Assembly: GCA_025782395.1 (NCBI GenBank)
Contig: JALGZD010000111.1
Location: 1-64,000, forward strand
Source of the DNA: a bacterium
Lineage (GTDB): Bacteria; Joyebacterota; Joyebacteria; Joyebacterales; Joyebacteraceae
Length of the DNA stretch: 64,000 nt
Reading direction: 5' to 3'
A program made the position numbers and the translations under genes. Of the stretch, positions 22,933 to 30,047 are shown in pieces; the first letter of the stretch is position 1; the number at the start of each line of letters is the position of its first letter. Below the pieces are notes generated by a model. It saw only the letters and a program-made list of their open reading frames with translations, ran no database searches and was not told the DNA's origin.

Positions 22933-23446
22933 GCCCGAGAGACGCGATGTCGCCGGGATCGACACCATAGTCCTGCACTGCACAGCCATGCCCGGCTGGA
23001 ATGTCTGGGAGACGGCGCGCTATCACACAGGGCCCAATCACATTTCCCCGGACGGGTGCCCTTCAATCGCCTACGCGTACTTTGTGGAGCCCGACGGCCT
23101 GCTCTACCGCTGTCTACCACATGAGATACGCTCGTGGCACGTCGGGCCGTGGAACGACCGCTCGATAGGTGTCTGCATGGCGTACGAGGCGCGCGATGAA
23201 CCGCCGCCGCGCGAACAGTTGGAAGCGGCCGTCGACATCTGTGCCGATCTCGCGCAGAAGCTGGGTCTCTCCGCCGAGCGCGTCATGGGGCACAGGGAAC
23301 TCGAGGGAACCGGCTTCGTCATCGAGAACGGTGAGCGCGTTCAGCGCAAGGAGTGTCCGGGGTCTGCGGTCGACATGGATGAGATCCGACGCTCCGTCGC
23401 GGCTGTGATTGAGCGACCCGGCGGGCCGGGAGTGATGGAGGCATGA
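22886..23446 (+). CDS. N-acetylmuramoyl-L-alanine amidase (Amidase_2/AmpD-like)
   Basis: 186 residues if translation starts at 22886; an ATG at 22910 is a shorter choice, and both lie inside the preceding gene. Zinc-site pattern of the PGRP/AmpD fold: TIVLHCTAMPG gives the first His, VMGHRELEG the second, and KECPGSAVDM the third-ligand region. YHTGPNHISPDGCPSIAYAYFV matches the usual substrate-cleft segment. It cleaves the bond between MurNAc and the stem peptide. There is no signal peptide, so it probably acts on cytoplasmic turnover products. The stop overlaps the start of the PBP4 gene, linking two peptidoglycan genes. Confidence 0.85.
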   Translation: MRWLHDISMVLPRTGEPERRDVAGIDTIVLHCTAMPGWNVWETARYHTGPNHISPDGCPSIAYAYFVEPDGLLYRCLPHEIRSWHVGPWNDRSIGVCMAYEARDEPPPREQLEAAVDICADLAQKLGLSAERVMGHRELEGTGFVIENGERVQRKECPGSAVDMDEIRRSVAAVIERPGGPGVMEA

Positions 23447-24980
23447 TGCGACGCTTGAGATCCGTTCTGGTCCCGGTACTGATGCTGGTGGTGGCGCTTG
23501 TCCTATGTCCGTCCGCGGTCCGCGCTGCGGATTCCCTTCAGAGCCTCTCCTGGATCATAGACTCGTTCCTCGCCAGGCCGCATATGCGTGGGGCGGAACT
23601 CTCCATTATTGTCGAGTCACTGGAACCCGGTGCGGTGGACGGCGCTACGCTCCCGCAGCAGGGGGCAACGGGGCCTGCTGCGCAGGAGGCGGCAGAAGGC
23701 CTGGTACTCTACGAGCGCCGAGCCGACCGACCGATGATTCCCGCGTCGAACATGAAGGTAGTGACGGCCGCCGCCACGCTCTCGCTTCTGGGCCCTGACT
23801 ACAGGTTCGAGACCAGCTTCTCTACGGACAGCGGCGCGATCTCCCCGGTTCTCGACGGCAACCTCTATGTCAGAGGCAACGGCGATCCGACGCTGGTCTC
23901 GGAGGAGTTCTGGAAGATAGCGGATGAGTTCCGCACAAGGGGCATCGAGCGGATCGCAGGCGACATCGTCCTCGATGTGTCGTACTTCGACGGTCTGACG
24001 ACGGTGCCCGAAGCTGCCGGAGATGGTGATCGTGCTTACCACGCGAGAACGAGCGCGCTCTCCGCGAACTTCAACACGGTTCGCGTGCACGTCCACCCCG
24101 GCGCAAAGAGGGGAGAGGCTGCCCGGGTTGAGTTCTCGCCCGAGACCGGATTCGTTGACGTGGTCAACGAGGCCACGACCTGTTCCGCGAGCCGCAGCCA
24201 GACAATTCAGGTGAGGCGCCGCTTCGAGGACGGTCGGAACGTAGTTCACGTCTCCGGGCGGATACCCGTGGGTCACTGCGGGAAGGTCTTCTACAGGAAC
24301 ATCGACGACCCCGCGGGATCGTTCGGTGCGACGCTTGCCGGCTTTCTGAAAGGGGCCGGGACAGCGCTTGACGGAAGCATCGTCGAGGGTGTCCAACCGG
24401 ATGGCGCGCGTGAGCTGTTCGTTCATCGCTCGAAGCCGCTTTCGCTCATCGTCCGGGATCTCAACAAGTTCAGCAACAACTTCACCGCCGAGCAGCTCTT
24501 GAAGACACTCGGTGCTATGAACGGTGATGGCGGTTGGAACCCTGGCGGCGGGAGCCTTGGCGACGGAAGCCTCGGGAAGTCGCGCGAGACTCCGGATCAA
24601 GGGCCTGGGGCCCCCGGTACGACGGCTTCCGGAACAGCCGTTCTCATGACTTACCTCAGGAGCCTCGGTGTCGACACAACTGATCTCAGGATTGCTGACG
24701 GTTCGGGCCTGTCGCGCGAGAGCAGGCTGACCGTACGTTCCCTTGCCCGCGTCATCCGGGAGATGTACGCTGACTTCGGGGTGTGGGCTTCGGAGGGTTG
24801 AGCGGGGCGATCAGGGCGAAGACCGGACTGCTGGATGGCGTGACCACAATCTCCGGTGTCATGGAGACTGCCGCAGGGGAGAGGGTCCTCTTCTCCATCA
24901 TCGTGAACGGCTGGTCGTGCGAGGCGTGGCAGATCCACGACATGGAGCACGCGATCCTACTTCACATCTACCAGAGCTGA
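23443..24980 (+). pseudogene. dacB: PBP4-type D-alanyl-D-alanine carboxypeptidase, frameshifted
   Basis: The first frame (23443-24801) has a signal peptide, the active-site SNMK (S102, K105) and the second motif SNN (S344, N346). It stops right after LARVIREMYADFGVWASEG. The third motif appears in another frame as SGAIRAKTGLLDGV (24801-24845), and this frame runs to 24980 with a normal PBP4 ending. Compared with other PBP4s, roughly 30 residues between MYAD and RAKTG (the usual LPVAG..GTL..R segment) are missing, so a deletion that broke the frame is the simplest reading. The gene is either inactive or affected by an assembly error. It overlaps the amidase gene by 4 bases. Confidence 0.75.
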
Positions 24981-25054
24981 GGCTGCGGCCGGGTGAGAAC
25001 ATGACGATCGCGAACAGGCGCGGCCGCGCGGGCTGATCACAGATCACAGGTGAG

Positions 25055-26200
25055 GTGCCGGACGTGACAGAGGAGCGAACCTCCAGATTCACAGCCAAGG
25101 ACTTCCGCGCCACAGCGCGGACCCTCATCCTGTGGGTCGTGGCGAACTCGCTCGCCGGCGCGCTCATCGGTGTGGCGATCGCTCTCTTTGCCGACCGCCC
25201 TGGTACCCTCGAGAGCTTCGTTCCTCTCAGCATCCTCTTTGCCAACGCCGTCGGCTTCGCGGCCGGACTCACCGCTCGCTTCATCCTCCCTCGCTACAGT
25301 GTGCTGCCGGTCTATGTAAGGATCCCGCTGGCCATCATCACGCTTTTTGCCGGCGGCGCGTTCGGATCGGTTCTCGTCATCTTCCGGAACCCCGTATTTG
25401 TTCTCTATGAAGGTCGCCTGACGCTCCTGCTCGTGTTGGTCGACAGCGTCATCGCGGTCATCGTCGGTTTCATCATCTACAACTACGAGCGGATGAGACA
25501 GGAGATAGAACGAAGCTACAGGGAGCTTGCCGGGAATCGCGTCCGGGAGGAGAGACTGCGGGAACTGGCCACGCGTTCCGAGCTCAAGGCCCTCAAGGCG
25601 CAGATCAACCCGCACTTTCTCTTCAATGCGCTGAACTCCATCTCCGCACTGGTGACCGTAGATCCGGAGGCCGCCCGGCGCACGCTGGAGCGCCTCGCGA
25701 GCGTTTTCAGGAAGACGCTCCTGGCGTCGGAAGAGAGCAGTGTGCCGCTCAAACGGGAACTGGAACTCATTGACGCTTACCTCGACATCGAGCGGGCCCG
25801 CTTCGGAGACCGGATGCGTGTGGAGCGCTCGATAGCACCGGATGTCGGGGAAGTGGAGATCCCACCGCTCATTCTGCAACCGATAGTGGAGAACGCCGTG
25901 CGCCACGGGATATCACCGAGCGTCGGGGGAGGAACGGTGAGCATTGACGCGAGTCTCACTGGCGGCTTCCTGATCGTCACAGTGCGAGACGACGGCGTGG
26001 GCGTTGCGGCCGACGACTTGCACGACACGATGTCGGCCGGCTATGGTCTCCGTAGTGTGCGCGACCGGCTGAACACGCGTTATGGCTCCGGCGACTGGAT
26101 CACGATCAAGAGCGAGCCCGACCGCGGGATGACCGTTCGACTCACCATTCCCATCGACGCGGCCGAGGGGGAGCCCGGATCGGGAGAGGGAGACCGATGA
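25055..26200 (+). CDS. LytS/YehU-type sensor histidine kinase with four-helix membrane module
   Basis: 381 residues, GTG start with AGGTGAGG nearby. Residues 20-155 hold four membrane helices and end in FIIYNYERMRQEIE, leading into a short coiled coil. The His_kinase domain has LKAQINPHFLFNALNSISAL with phospho-acceptor H187. The ATPase part follows with QPIVENAVRHG (N box), DDGVGV and GYGLRSVRDRL. The membrane module is clearly homologous to the N-terminus of the phosphatase at 28611. The response regulator gene overlaps the stop by 4 bases, so the pair is a LytS/LytT-like two-component system. The signal is unknown; its neighbours suggest an envelope cue. Confidence 0.92.
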   Translation: MPDVTEERTSRFTAKDFRATARTLILWVVANSLAGALIGVAIALFADRPGTLESFVPLSILFANAVGFAAGLTARFILPRYSVLPVYVRIPLAIITLFAGGAFGSVLVIFRNPVFVLYEGRLTLLLVLVDSVIAVIVGFIIYNYERMRQEIERSYRELAGNRVREERLRELATRSELKALKAQINPHFLFNALNSISALVTVDPEAARRTLERLASVFRKTLLASEESSVPLKRELELIDAYLDIERARFGDRMRVERSIAPDVGEVEIPPLILQPIVENAVRHGISPSVGGGTVSIDASLTGGFLIVTVRDDGVGVAADDLHDTMSAGYGLRSVRDRLNTRYGSGDWITIKSEPDRGMTVRLTIPIDAAEGEPGSGEGDR

Positions 26201-26952
26201 CCGACACGATCAGGGTCCTTGTGGTCGACGATGAGGAACTGGCGCGTGAGCGCGTGAAGGTTCTCCTCGCGGAGTGCGACGGGTGCGAGTGTGTGGGCGA
26301 GGCGAAGAACGGCCTCGTGGCCGTGGAGAAAATCAAGGAACTTGCCCCGGATCTTGTCATCCTCGACATACAGATGCCCGGCATGAGCGGTTTTGAGGTG
26401 ATCGAGGCCCTTGACGAAACTCCGCTCATCATCTTCGCAACCGCGTATGATGAGTACGCCATCAAGGCCTTTGAGGTGAACTCGATCGACTACCTTCTCA
26501 AGCCGATCGAGAAGGAGAGATTCGCGGAGGCGCTGGAGCGCGCGCGTGAGCTTCTCGATGGGGGAGCGGGCTTCAGCGAACAGATCGAGCGTCTTGCCGG
26601 ACTCGTTCGCCAGGGTGGCGTCAGCCGGCTGCCTGTTACGAAGGGCAAGAGAATCGTGCTCCTGGATCTGGATCGAATCGTGTGGATCGAGGCGTCCGAC
26701 GAACTGGTCTTCGTGCACACAAAGAACGAGCGTTATCTCATCAACATGACGATGGCTGAGCTCGAACGAAAGCTGGACGCGAGCGTGTTCTTCCGGACTC
26801 ACCGATCGAGCATCGTCAGCCTGAACCACGTGGTCGAGATCGTCCCGTGGTTCGGCGGGAAGTACCAGGTCGTCATGGATGACGCCGACCGTACGGAGGT
26901 CGTGCTCTCCCGTGCGCGGGCAAAGAGCTTGCGCGAGATCCTGCCCTGGTAG
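26197..26952 (+). CDS. LytTR family response regulator
   Basis: 251 residues. The receiver domain (1-120) has the acidic pair D11-D12, phospho-acceptor D57 in LDIQMPGMSG, the conserved T/A in FATAYDEYA and Lys in YLLKPI. The LytTR DNA-binding domain occupies about 145-248 (RIVLLDLDRIVWIEASDELV, then FFRTHRSSIVSLNHVVEI). Such regulators bind direct repeats upstream of envelope genes. The stop is followed by a GC hairpin, then a 300-base gap carrying the promoter of the bactofilin-like gene, a natural target. Confidence 0.93.
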   Translation: MTDTIRVLVVDDEELARERVKVLLAECDGCECVGEAKNGLVAVEKIKELAPDLVILDIQMPGMSGFEVIEALDETPLIIFATAYDEYAIKAFEVNSIDYLLKPIEKERFAEALERARELLDGGAGFSEQIERLAGLVRQGGVSRLPVTKGKRIVLLDLDRIVWIEASDELVFVHTKNERYLINMTMAELERKLDASVFFRTHRSSIVSLNHVVEIVPWFGGKYQVVMDDADRTEVVLSRARAKSLREILPW

Positions 26953-26976
26953 GCAGGATGGCGCGGCGCGTCCTGC
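26953..26976 (+). terminator. Hairpin after the response regulator gene
   Basis: GCAGGA and TCCTGC flank a GC-rich internal region just after the stop codon. No T run follows, so this is at best a weak terminator. The rest of the gap to 27105 shows no ORF or clear motif. Confidence 0.35.
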
Positions 26977-27105
26977 TCCCGCCGGCTCCGGTCGCCCCAT
27001 GCACTGTGGCGCGCAGCAGGGCCGCATCTCCACCCCTCCGACACTCCAGCTCATCTGCCAGAACCGTCGTTTCACGGGCGCATCCGTCACTTGACGGACA
27101 TTGTC

Positions 27106-27134
27106 TTCATACAAAGCCGTTTGACTCGTAATAT
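27106..27134 (+). promoter_or_regulatory. Sigma-70-type promoter of the bactofilin-like gene
   Basis: TTCATA and TAATAT are separated by 17 bases, about 117 bases before the ATG at 27252. The long untranslated leader leaves room for regulation. LytTR-type direct repeats could not be confirmed by eye. Confidence 0.55.
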
Positions 27135-27251
27135 TGCACCGTGGGAGACACACGGGAGCAAAGCAGCCGACCCGGCTGGGGGTTCTGCTGAAGACTCCCA
27201 AGAGATCGCAGAAGACACGGTTCAAATCGAGCCGACAACGGGGGGAAGAAA

Positions 27252-28607
27252 ATGAACACGGAACGGAACATCATAGCGAGCGTCGTGATTCTGGTGATTA
27301 CGCTCGTGATGGGGCTCGCAGCTCCTGCCGCGGCCGACGGTGTGGCTCTGGGGAAAGCCGCGGGGGCAGCCGCCAGCGGAGCGGCATCGGACGCGGCATC
27401 GGCGATCCAGACAATCGATCATTCGGTCACTGCCTCGTCAGGAACAAGCATCTCGATCGCCAACACGATGCGGATCGAGCAGACGGGTAGCTTCACCATT
27501 CCCGAGGATGAGACGTACGCCTACGACGTCTACATGTGGACCCAGAGCTTCAATGTCAAGGGGACACTCGATGGCGACGCCTGCGTCTGGGCGCAGTGGC
27601 TGACAATTGACGGTACGCTGACCCAGGATCTGAACGCGTTCGCTCAGGATGTCACCATCAACGGCATCGTCGGTGATGACGTCCGTATCTTCGCCCAGAA
27701 CGTCTACATCCACGGCACGATAGAGGGCGATGCTATGATCGCAGCCGCCAATCTCATCGTCTATGAAGATGCTGTTATCGAGGGCAGCCTTCTCGTCGGA
27801 GCCGGTCAAGTGACGTACCGCGGGACCGTCAAGGGCGACGCGAGAATTGCCACAGGCTCGCTCACAATGGCCGGCCGGATCGACGGCAACGCCGAGCTTT
27901 TCACGGACGGAGGCATCACGCTTCTGGATGGAGCGCATGTCGGTGGGGATCTCATCTACCAGGCACCGACGCAGATCGAGTTCGGGAGCGGGGTCGCCAC
28001 CGGAACGATCACCTTCAAGAAGCAGGACAGTAAGGATGAGGTCTCTGCGGCTGTTGATTTCGCCGGGCGCTTCAAGTCTATCCTCCATGTTTTCGGGCTG
28101 ATCGCTGCGATTGCCGCTGGTAGCATCATCGTTGCCTTGACGAGTGATCACGCCAGGAAGACGGCAAACATTGTCAGGAAGAAGCCGCTCAAGAGCGTGG
28201 GAATCGGGTTCATCGCCTTCATCTGCATGCCGATCATCATCATTCTCTCGATCGTCTTCATCATCACGATTCCGTTCGGTTTCGTACTGACGCTGGCCTA
28301 TCTCATCGCTCTCTACATCGCCAAGTTCTACGTGGCCATCTGGCTCGGCAATGCGATCCTCAGGCGGGGTGATGCGATCATGACGAAGTCACCTATTCCT
28401 CCAATGCTGCTGGGTCTCCTCGGTCTCTACATCATCACCGCGATACCCGTCATCGGCACGCTGTCCGGTGTTATCATCATCTTCTTCGGTCTCGGGGCGC
28501 TCCTGCAGCGCAAGGAGACCGGTCTGGCAACCGCGTTTGAGCCGACACCAGTAGCTAACGACATAGGACTTCCGAGTGCCTTCCCCGGAACGGGGACGGA
28601 GGGATAA
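27252..28607 (+). CDS. Membrane-anchored bactofilin-like (polymer-forming) protein
   Basis: 451 residues, with CGGGGGGAAGAA before the ATG. A signal peptide or N-terminal anchor (8-29) is followed by an Ala/Ser-rich stretch. Residues about 75-250 are a run of short repeats of the bactofilin/beta-helix type (NVKGTLDGDACVWAQWL, TINGIVGDDVRIFAQNV, YIHGTIEGDAMIAAANL). The C-terminal 175 residues hold four or five membrane helices. Bactofilins polymerise into filaments that scaffold the envelope; this form would place the helix outside the cytoplasmic membrane, which is inference. It lies between the two-component system and the phosphatase, with 3 bases to the latter. Confidence 0.75.
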   Translation: MNTERNIIASVVILVITLVMGLAAPAAADGVALGKAAGAAASGAASDAASAIQTIDHSVTASSGTSISIANTMRIEQTGSFTIPEDETYAYDVYMWTQSFNVKGTLDGDACVWAQWLTIDGTLTQDLNAFAQDVTINGIVGDDVRIFAQNVYIHGTIEGDAMIAAANLIVYEDAVIEGSLLVGAGQVTYRGTVKGDARIATGSLTMAGRIDGNAELFTDGGITLLDGAHVGGDLIYQAPTQIEFGSGVATGTITFKKQDSKDEVSAAVDFAGRFKSILHVFGLIAAIAAGSIIVALTSDHARKTANIVRKKPLKSVGIGFIAFICMPIIIILSIVFIITIPFGFVLTLAYLIALYIAKFYVAIWLGNAILRRGDAIMTKSPIPPMLLGLLGLYIITAIPVIGTLSGVIIIFFGLGALLQRKETGLATAFEPTPVANDIGLPSAFPGTGTEG

Positions 28608-28610
28608 CCG

Positions 28611-30047
28611 ATGAGTCGAGGTACACGCGGGAGCTCACCTCAAGCGCTTTCCCGGAGGCTTACTCTCAAGACGATCCTTCTCTGGGTGCTTGCAGCGAGC
28701 GCTGCGGGGCTGGCGGTCGGAGTGACGATTCAAACGTTCTCCGGGAGTGAAGGTGGCGTTGCACGATCGTTCATTCCAATGAGCATGATCTTTGCCAACG
28801 TTGCGGTCTTCGCAGCGGTGCTTACAGTGCGTTACGTGCTTCCGAAGATGAGTGGATTCCCGGTCTACGTTCGCTTCCCGCTCGCAGTTATCACGCTGAT
28901 TGCGGCCGGGGTGTTCGGGAGCGGTATGGCCATCCTTATCAACCCGCTGGTCGTTCTCTACCAGATGCGGAACGCTCTCATGATCGTGACCGTCAACGGA
29001 GTGGTCGCGCTCGTGATCGGAGTCATCACGTACAACTATGAGCTCCTGAGGGAGCAGATTGAGACGGTCGTCGCTGAGCGAAGCAAGCTGGAGCAGGAGA
29101 TGAACATCGCACGGACGATCCAGACGCAGCTCTTGCCCAAGTGCTTCCCCGAACTGTCCGGCTGGGACATATACGGATTCAGTGTTCCCGCAAAGCATGT
29201 GGGTGGCGACTGCTTCGATGTCATCGACATAGGTGACGGGAAGCTCGCCGTCACGATCGGCGACGTGGCAGGGAAGGGAACTCCCGCCGCGATCCTCATG
29301 GCGAACATTCAGGCGGCGGTCCGGGCTCTGGCGGAAAGCGGAGTAGAGCCGCAGCAGCTCATGGGACACGTTAATCGGATCGCCCACAGCTACACGAGGG
29401 ACAGTGAGTTCATCACTTTCTTCTACTGTGTGCTGGATACGAGAACGGGAGAGATCCGTTACGTCAACGCAGGGCACAATCTGCCTTGCGTTCTCCGCTC
29501 AAATGGAGAGAAAGAGTTCCTCGATAAGGGCGGACTGATTGTCGGGGTCATGCCGAACGTTGAGTATGAGGATGCCGTTGTTGCGCTGGATCCCGGCGAC
29601 AGCATCGTTCTTTTCACCGATGGTGTGACGGAGGCGCTGAATCCACTCGAGGAGATGTTCGGGGACGAACGGCTAGAGGATCTTCTGGTCGAGCATCGTG
29701 ATCTCGGCGCTCGTGGCATCGAGGAACGCGTCTACACAGAACTCAAGGATTTCGTAGCTGGGGCTGCGCAGGCAGACGACATCACGATGGTCGTGGTGAA
29801 GTGCTGCGCGGAGGCGACAGTCCCGGCGTTCTACGAAGAGAACTCGGACTCCCCCCGAGAAGCCGATGGTGGGCTCTCTGCCGCGCGAGGTGTTTCCTCA
29901 GGGAACCACCTTAGAGAGCCCACCGAGGCTGCCGTCCCTGTGAGAAAGAGAGACGTTCTTGTGGCGGCCACCGGAATCGCGCCAGCAGGTAGTCCTCGAG
30001 AAGGGCCGGCGCTTTCGGCCACGTTTCCCGGCAGTGGAGATTCCTGA
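28611..30047 (+). CDS. SpoIIE/RsbU-type PP2C serine phosphatase with four-helix membrane module
   Basis: 478 residues. Residues 18-150 are four membrane helices matching those of the kinase at 25055 along their length (compare IFANVAVFAAVLTVRYVLPK and ITYNYELLREQIE). A coiled coil with EQEMNIARTIQTQLLP precedes the PP2C domain (about 180-400), whose metal ligands appear as GGDCFD (D200) and GDVAGKG (D218), then LFTDGVTEA and ADDIT. Such phosphatases dephosphorylate anti-sigma antagonists in partner-switching systems. The last 80 residues are low-complexity and coincide with a strong inverted repeat. No anti-sigma or antagonist gene is in the window. Confidence 0.9.
   Translation: MSRGTRGSSPQALSRRLTLKTILLWVLAASAAGLAVGVTIQTFSGSEGGVARSFIPMSMIFANVAVFAAVLTVRYVLPKMSGFPVYVRFPLAVITLIAAGVFGSGMAILINPLVVLYQMRNALMIVTVNGVVALVIGVITYNYELLREQIETVVAERSKLEQEMNIARTIQTQLLPKCFPELSGWDIYGFSVPAKHVGGDCFDVIDIGDGKLAVTIGDVAGKGTPAAILMANIQAAVRALAESGVEPQQLMGHVNRIAHSYTRDSEFITFFYCVLDTRTGEIRYVNAGHNLPCVLRSNGEKEFLDKGGLIVGVMPNVEYEDAVVALDPGDSIVLFTDGVTEALNPLEEMFGDERLEDLLVEHRDLGARGIEERVYTELKDFVAGAAQADDITMVVVKCCAEATVPAFYEENSDSPREADGGLSAARGVSSGNHLREPTEAAVPVRKRDVLVAATGIAPAGSPREGPALSATFPGSGDS
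29868..29924. repeat. 12-bp perfect inverted repeat within the phosphatase 3' end
   Basis: GGTGGGCTCTCT and AGAGAGCCCACC are exact reverse complements 33 bases apart. Within the loop, GGTGTTTCC and GGAACCACC pair with one mismatch, so the whole 57 bases can fold as one long hairpin. It lies in the part of the gene beyond the PP2C domain. Confidence 0.6.

Follow-up and report, generated by a model that had tools for sequence, protein, structure and literature searches.

Among the closest described relatives of the locus are the LytS/LytTR systems, such as YpdA/YpdB-yhjX and AlgZ/AlgR. LytTR regulators bind 9-11 nt repeats separated by 11-13 nt spacers, for example GGCATTTCAT for YpdB (PMC4847170), and AlgR binds CCGTTCGTC (PMC4064291). 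In Lia/PSP systems, a beta-helix plus 4TM protein adjoining a kinase or a LytTR regulator is known, and LytTR next to Toastrack-4TM has been reported (PMC11237479). Exchange of sensor domains among PPM phosphatases, kinases and GGDEF proteins is a general principle (PMC12143880).

The locus described here lies within a 64,000-nucleotide stretch of bacterial DNA, referred to as the window (contig JALGZD010000111.1). Like YpdA/YpdB and AlgZ/AlgR, it has a PF06580 kinase, a LytTR regulator and direct repeats with a period of about 21 bp, and like YpdB the regulator apparently has one main target. It differs from both in that the probable target is a membrane bactofilin-like protein plus a phosphatase, the kinase carries a four-TM module, and there are three half-sites instead of two. 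The combination of a membrane kinase, a regulator and a beta-helical protein with several TM helices resembles LiaFSR/PSP (PMC11237479), whereas here the solenoid is of the bactofilin type and a PP2C phosphatase carries the kinase's own module. Toastrack and LiaI-LiaF-TM domains, a HAMP kinase, an HTH regulator and PspA were all absent from the Pfam matches of the four proteins. As in PMC12143880, one input module is found on a kinase and on a SpoIIE-type phosphatase, probably acting via a helical linker, but sharing there was between proteins of different organisms or loci. In the present case a single locus encodes both proteins with the module, and such a pairing apparently arose twice, with unrelated modules.

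Each ingredient is already known: LytS/LytTR pairs, SpoIIE phosphatases, exchangeable sensors, and beta-helix plus TM proteins beside kinases. The first-pass annotation knew of no described system with this layout. This held for the combination, of which no description was found in the open-licence PMC literature, nor of the regulator site or of a second occurrence with another module; it did not hold for the ingredients, which have been published (PMC12143880, PMC11237479).

Gene organization of the locus

All four genes lay on the plus strand at the positions given by the first-pass annotation (Table 1). The kinase and regulator genes overlapped by 4 bp, the bactofilin and phosphatase genes were separated by 3 bp, and a 299-bp spacer divided the two pairs. 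The kinase matched His_kinase (PF06580, 95 bits) and HATPase_c in Pfam with H, N and G boxes, and the regulator combined a receiver domain (Response_reg) with LytTR (101 bits), as expected of a LytS/LytTR pair. The NPHFLFN motif and the N and G boxes were present in 17/17 kinase orthologues, apart from one G-box variant. The phosphatase matched SpoIIE at 178 bits; its metal-binding motifs GGD, GDxxGKG and DGxxE were found in 21/21 sequences and the ADDxT motif in only 11/21, including the window. NCBIfam returned only generic kinase/regulator and SpoIIE-type matches, and an Rfam search of the locus gave no match.

The dacB-like gene upstream (window 23443-25036) stopped early, at 452 aa, whereas its counterpart in a relative (L009) has 487 aa. 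Past the stop, the sequence coding for the conserved C-terminus ran on in another frame, so that the gene is either frameshifted here or affected by an assembly error.

Table 1. Features of the locus, in window coordinates
Feature	Position	Strand	Remarks
LytS/His_kinase-type sensor kinase	25055..26200	+	GTG start, 381 aa; module ~17-152, His_kinase 176-254, HATPase_c 273-367
Shared membrane module, kinase copy	25103..25516	+	49-50% identity to 28656-29066
LytTR response regulator	26197..26952	+	Pfam Response_reg + LytTR
Direct-repeat array: three half-sites with a CRYTTCAC core, period 21 bp	27026..27081	+	proposed LytTR-regulator sites
Palindrome TCCGTCACTTGACGGA	27083..27098	+	between array and -10-like element; genus only
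-10-like TAATAT candidate, then conserved TGCACCGTG	27129..27134	+	read from alignments
Membrane bactofilin-like protein	27252..28607	+	signal/anchor, solenoid ~72-255, C-terminal membrane helices, LPxxFPG tail
SpoIIE/PP2C Ser/Thr phosphatase	28611..30047	+	shared module ~15-151, SpoIIE domain 209-397
Shared membrane module, phosphatase copy	28656..29066	+	49-50% identity to kinase copy

The kinase and the phosphatase carry homologous membrane modules

The membrane regions of the kinase and the phosphatase shared 71 of 146 residues (49%) with one gap (E 5e-41). The Smith-Waterman score of the two modules was 350, compared to a maximum of 75 in 1000 plain shuffles and 143 in 1000 shuffles that preserved the pattern of hydrophobic, small and polar residues. 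Because the real score far exceeds that of the hydrophobicity-preserving shuffles, the two modules are truly homologous by sequence, beyond generic hydrophobicity, as the first-pass annotation had proposed. The opposite outputs that it assigned to them, a LytS-type kinase and a SpoIIE-type phosphatase, agreed with the Pfam matches. Hydropathy indicated about four membrane segments with short loops, and the AlphaFold model also had four helices at low confidence (mean pLDDT 51.5); the earlier label 'four-helix' therefore stands on hydropathy, with the low-confidence model in agreement.

The window genome contained only two copies of the module, and two was also the number per genome in the phylum. 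In an alignment of 33 module sequences from the phylum, 16 positions were invariant, including W, N, prolines and glycines. In the module tree, the kinase copies formed one clade and the phosphatase copies the other (support 100/100), which places both modules, on sequence grounds, as products of one old duplication that predates the diversification of the sampled phylum, with both copies retained. Concerted evolution of the modules within genomes of Candidatus Eisenbacteria was considered and rejected: the two clades were clean, and own-genome identity was not systematically above cross-genome identity. The extra copies seen in G002 (C123) and G010 (C461) seem to be contaminating sequence from a relative.

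Conservation within the phylum

The nearest named relatives were Candidatus Eisenbacteria MAGs, and 20 genomes of this phylum, including that of the window, were compared. The module was present in 19/20 and one genome had no match. The order kinase, regulator, bactofilin, phosphatase was intact on one contig in 13/20 genomes (window included) and the locus was interrupted by contig ends in 6/20; the four genes thus stay together in relatives. The retained order was longer than these four genes: MATE - PfkB - HAD - amidase - DacB - kinase - regulator - bactofilin - phosphatase. Since the flanking genes are kept as well, gene order alone is weak evidence of function.

Candidate regulator sites upstream of the bactofilin gene

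LytTR-type repeats, which the first-pass annotation suggested looking for in the spacer (26953-27251), were present there. The spacer has conserved blocks, with repeats across genera (e.g., CATTTCACCCCCGCTCAGACACACTTCACCCACCTGAATCCACACTTCACAGG), and the array of three half-sites with a 21-bp period was found in nearly all genera, although most of the spacer sequence could not be aligned. A CRYTTCAC-like core was seen in every repeat of the array profile. The array shows the geometry of LytTR sites: direct repeats with a period of about 21-22 bp, upstream of the proposed target. A second copy of the palindrome TCCGTCACTTGACGGA was noted in G003.

The arrays were scored as three TTCAC-type half-sites at 21 bp (maximum 15) and compared to 200 shuffles. 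Six genomes scored 15/15 and the window 12/15. In most genomes, none or very few of the 200 shuffles equaled the array score; it was not significant in four loci (L044, L046, L054 and L055), which were GC-rich, degenerate or without the first half-site.

A sequence-only site model yielded 18 matches with E < 1e-4 in the 20 phylum genomes (E 9e-13 to 7e-5), every one of them in front of the bactofilin gene. The strongest remaining match had an E of 1e-3 and lay in G010. No match with E < 1e-4 was found upstream of the kinase gene in these genomes. The window site scored 40 bits, and a leave-genus-out model recovered it (E 0.0019) together with the sites of its relatives and nothing else in 193 kb. 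Degenerate further targets could be missed, as the model was trained on these very sites. Because there is essentially one strong site per genome, always upstream of the bactofilin gene, the bactofilin-phosphatase operon is probably the main target of the regulator, in line with the earlier suggestion that the bactofilin is a target.

The membrane bactofilin-like protein

The third protein matched Pfam Bactofilin (PF04519) at 31.8 bits (cut-off 27.9) and resembles bactofilins in this match and in a regular solenoid whose turns span about 17-18 residues. The predicted solenoid had about ten strands with a pLDDT mostly of 70-93. The C-terminal membrane helices were modeled at low confidence and are supported by hydropathy, and the N-terminus is a hydrophobic signal or anchor. 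The extracytoplasmic repeat domain and C-terminal membrane helices described in the first-pass annotation are thus borne out as predictions. Bactofilins are cytosolic polymer proteins without membrane helices, whereas this solenoid would be secreted and followed by membrane helices; the protein is therefore named bactofilin-like and not a bactofilin proper. A Foldseek search of the model against the PDB returned nothing at E <= 0.001, with bactofilin 6rib ranked 32nd. The C-terminal tail FE...LPxxFPG (window 28530-28607) was conserved throughout the phylum. The window phosphatase also ends in an FPG-like tail, probably by chance, given its absence from the orthologues.

Related loci in other phyla

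Outside the phylum, the module was found in only one genome among 386 (G077), where an orthologous kinase and LytTR regulator were followed by an ECF sigma gene (L091 8645-11305), with no bactofilin or phosphatase. The module therefore does not strictly require the bactofilin. Relatives of the bactofilin-like protein were detected by profile in 28 genomes of other phyla. Among 20 such loci, a LytS-type kinase stood beside 3 and an ECF sigma gene beside 2, and most of these membrane proteins had no signalling neighbour. In L191 (5071-7313) and L195 (5028-7270), a bactofilin-like protein of 558 aa was encoded directly behind the ECF sigma gene, and in L191 an N-terminal zf-HC2 anti-sigma finger was demonstrated on it. 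The zf-HC2-bactofilin protein is a candidate anti-sigma factor whose outer domain is of the bactofilin type, and the fusion indicates that proteins of this type can belong to the signal input.

Another phylum contained a similar arrangement with a different module. The order in G209 was bactofilin, phosphatase, kinase, with kinase and phosphatase modules 50% identical, and the same order was found in G390 of this phylum, with modules 68% identical over 135 residues. In G450 and G451, also of this phylum, the phosphatase was absent: the bactofilin gene was followed by the kinase gene up to the contig end in G450, and by kinase and LytTR genes in G451. The latter order, again without the phosphatase, was observed in G092 and G233; in G233 a CAAX-protease gene intervened. 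No homology was detectable between the modules of G209 and Eisenbacteria (hhalign probability 0.3%). In G209 and G390, the phosphatase modules were 50-68% identical to kinases of their own family and about 30% to those of G450 and G451, which suggests that the phosphatase copy was taken locally. The two copies in G390 were 68% identical to each other, compared to 60-61% to their G209 counterparts, in a comparison of two genomes only. The kinase catalytic domains formed two groups (support 98/96); in a weakly supported tree, the two lineages' phosphatase domains were not sisters. From these sequences, a phosphatase seems to have acquired a copy of the kinase's sensor on two occasions, independent capture being the simpler reading.

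In six loci of other phyla, AlgR-like ACCRTTCRTC repeats with 21-bp spacing preceded the bactofilin gene by about 93-120 bp. The best period was 21 bp (equaled by 22 bp in L185), with a shuffle P <= 0.002 for a consensus chosen after inspection. The Eisenbacteria site model gave these sites no score, so the likeness across phyla is one of geometry and core only.

Possible partners of the phosphatase

SpoIIE-domain enzymes characteristically act on STAS antagonists. An adjacent pair of STAS and HATPase_c_2 (RsbW-like) genes was present in 5/5 genomes of the genus, only one per genome, consistent with the partner-switching pathway put forward in the first-pass annotation. In the window genome, the pair was on a different contig, unlinked to the locus, and the STAS protein carried an NSTGLG phosphosite-like motif with a potentially phosphorylatable Ser. 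Given this pair, the phosphatase branch has plausible partners. The genome encoded three SpoIIE phosphatases, the other two with GAF or FHA-GAF-like inputs. The STAS/RsbW-like pair (L122 5748-6531) lay in what resembles an operon, together with recG and a gene for an HD-domain protein.

Proposed mechanism and alternative explanations

Module homology, the site array with one strong site per genome, the gene order and the STAS/RsbW pair can all be read from the DNA. We suggest, with a probability of roughly 0.55 for the explanation as a whole, that the locus works as a signalling operon for the state of the membrane, its two outputs drawing on one module family. The four-TM module, with almost no external loop, would read the state of the membrane and drive the LytS-type kinase, which would phosphorylate the LytTR regulator. 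The regulator would bind the three 21-bp-spaced half-sites and turn on, rather than repress, the bactofilin-phosphatase operon. Bearing a copy of the same module, the phosphatase may be tuned to the membrane condition sensed by the kinase. It would dephosphorylate a STAS antagonist, probably that of the sole RsbV/RsbW-like pair, and thereby free a downstream factor. The membrane bactofilin would be both the induced product and the likeliest partner to contact the module, as a feedback element or a sensing scaffold comparable to LiaF.

The bactofilin may instead have only an effector role, as an envelope or shape element that the two-component system induces and that neither the kinase nor the phosphatase reads. 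The LytTR array preceding its gene and the many bactofilin-like membrane proteins elsewhere that lack a signalling neighbour are consistent with such a role, but the zf-HC2-bactofilin fusion behind an ECF sigma gene and the repeated placement next to membrane kinases suit a signalling part, and we regard a pure effector as somewhat unlikely. It is unlikely that the phosphatase targets another phosphoprotein and not an RsbV/RsbW partner switch: there is a single adjacent STAS/RsbW-like pair in each genome of the genus, and STAS antagonists are the characteristic targets of SpoIIE-domain enzymes, although the unlinked position of the pair on another contig and the two further SpoIIE phosphatases would fit a different substrate.

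The module could also be merely a membrane anchor and dimerisation unit. The cues for kinase and phosphatase would then differ, and the nearest membrane domain would simply have been acquired by the phosphatase. Duplicating a neighbour is mechanistically easy, and the TM segments have short loops and no external sensing domain. Nevertheless, an identity of about 45-50% with invariant W, N, proline and glycine exceeds the expected needs of an anchor, and a like capture took place with another module in another phylum; we regard a mere anchor as unlikely. A frozen gene order of functionally unlinked neighbours, which the equally conserved order of the flanking MATE, PfkB, HAD, amidase and DacB genes would fit, is highly improbable given the shared module, the candidate sites exactly before the bactofilin gene and the same association in unrelated phyla.

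A signalling operon with two outputs from one module family remains our preferred reading. Extended beyond this phylum, and more tentatively, the loci may belong to a widespread, undescribed class of envelope-signalling operons in which a LytS-type kinase senses a membrane bactofilin; independent capture of the neighbouring kinase's sensor by a SpoIIE phosphatase, in at least two lineages, would have split one membrane signal into a transcriptional and a partner-switch branch.

PMC12143880 raises the question of how shared sensors come to be linked to different outputs. In the present locus, one operon contains both outputs with one sensor family, and the arrangement is repeated in another phylum with a different sensor, so that module-swap tests would be direct. 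The locus also links membrane-bound bactofilin-like proteins to a specific regulator, a candidate promoter site and a phosphatase.
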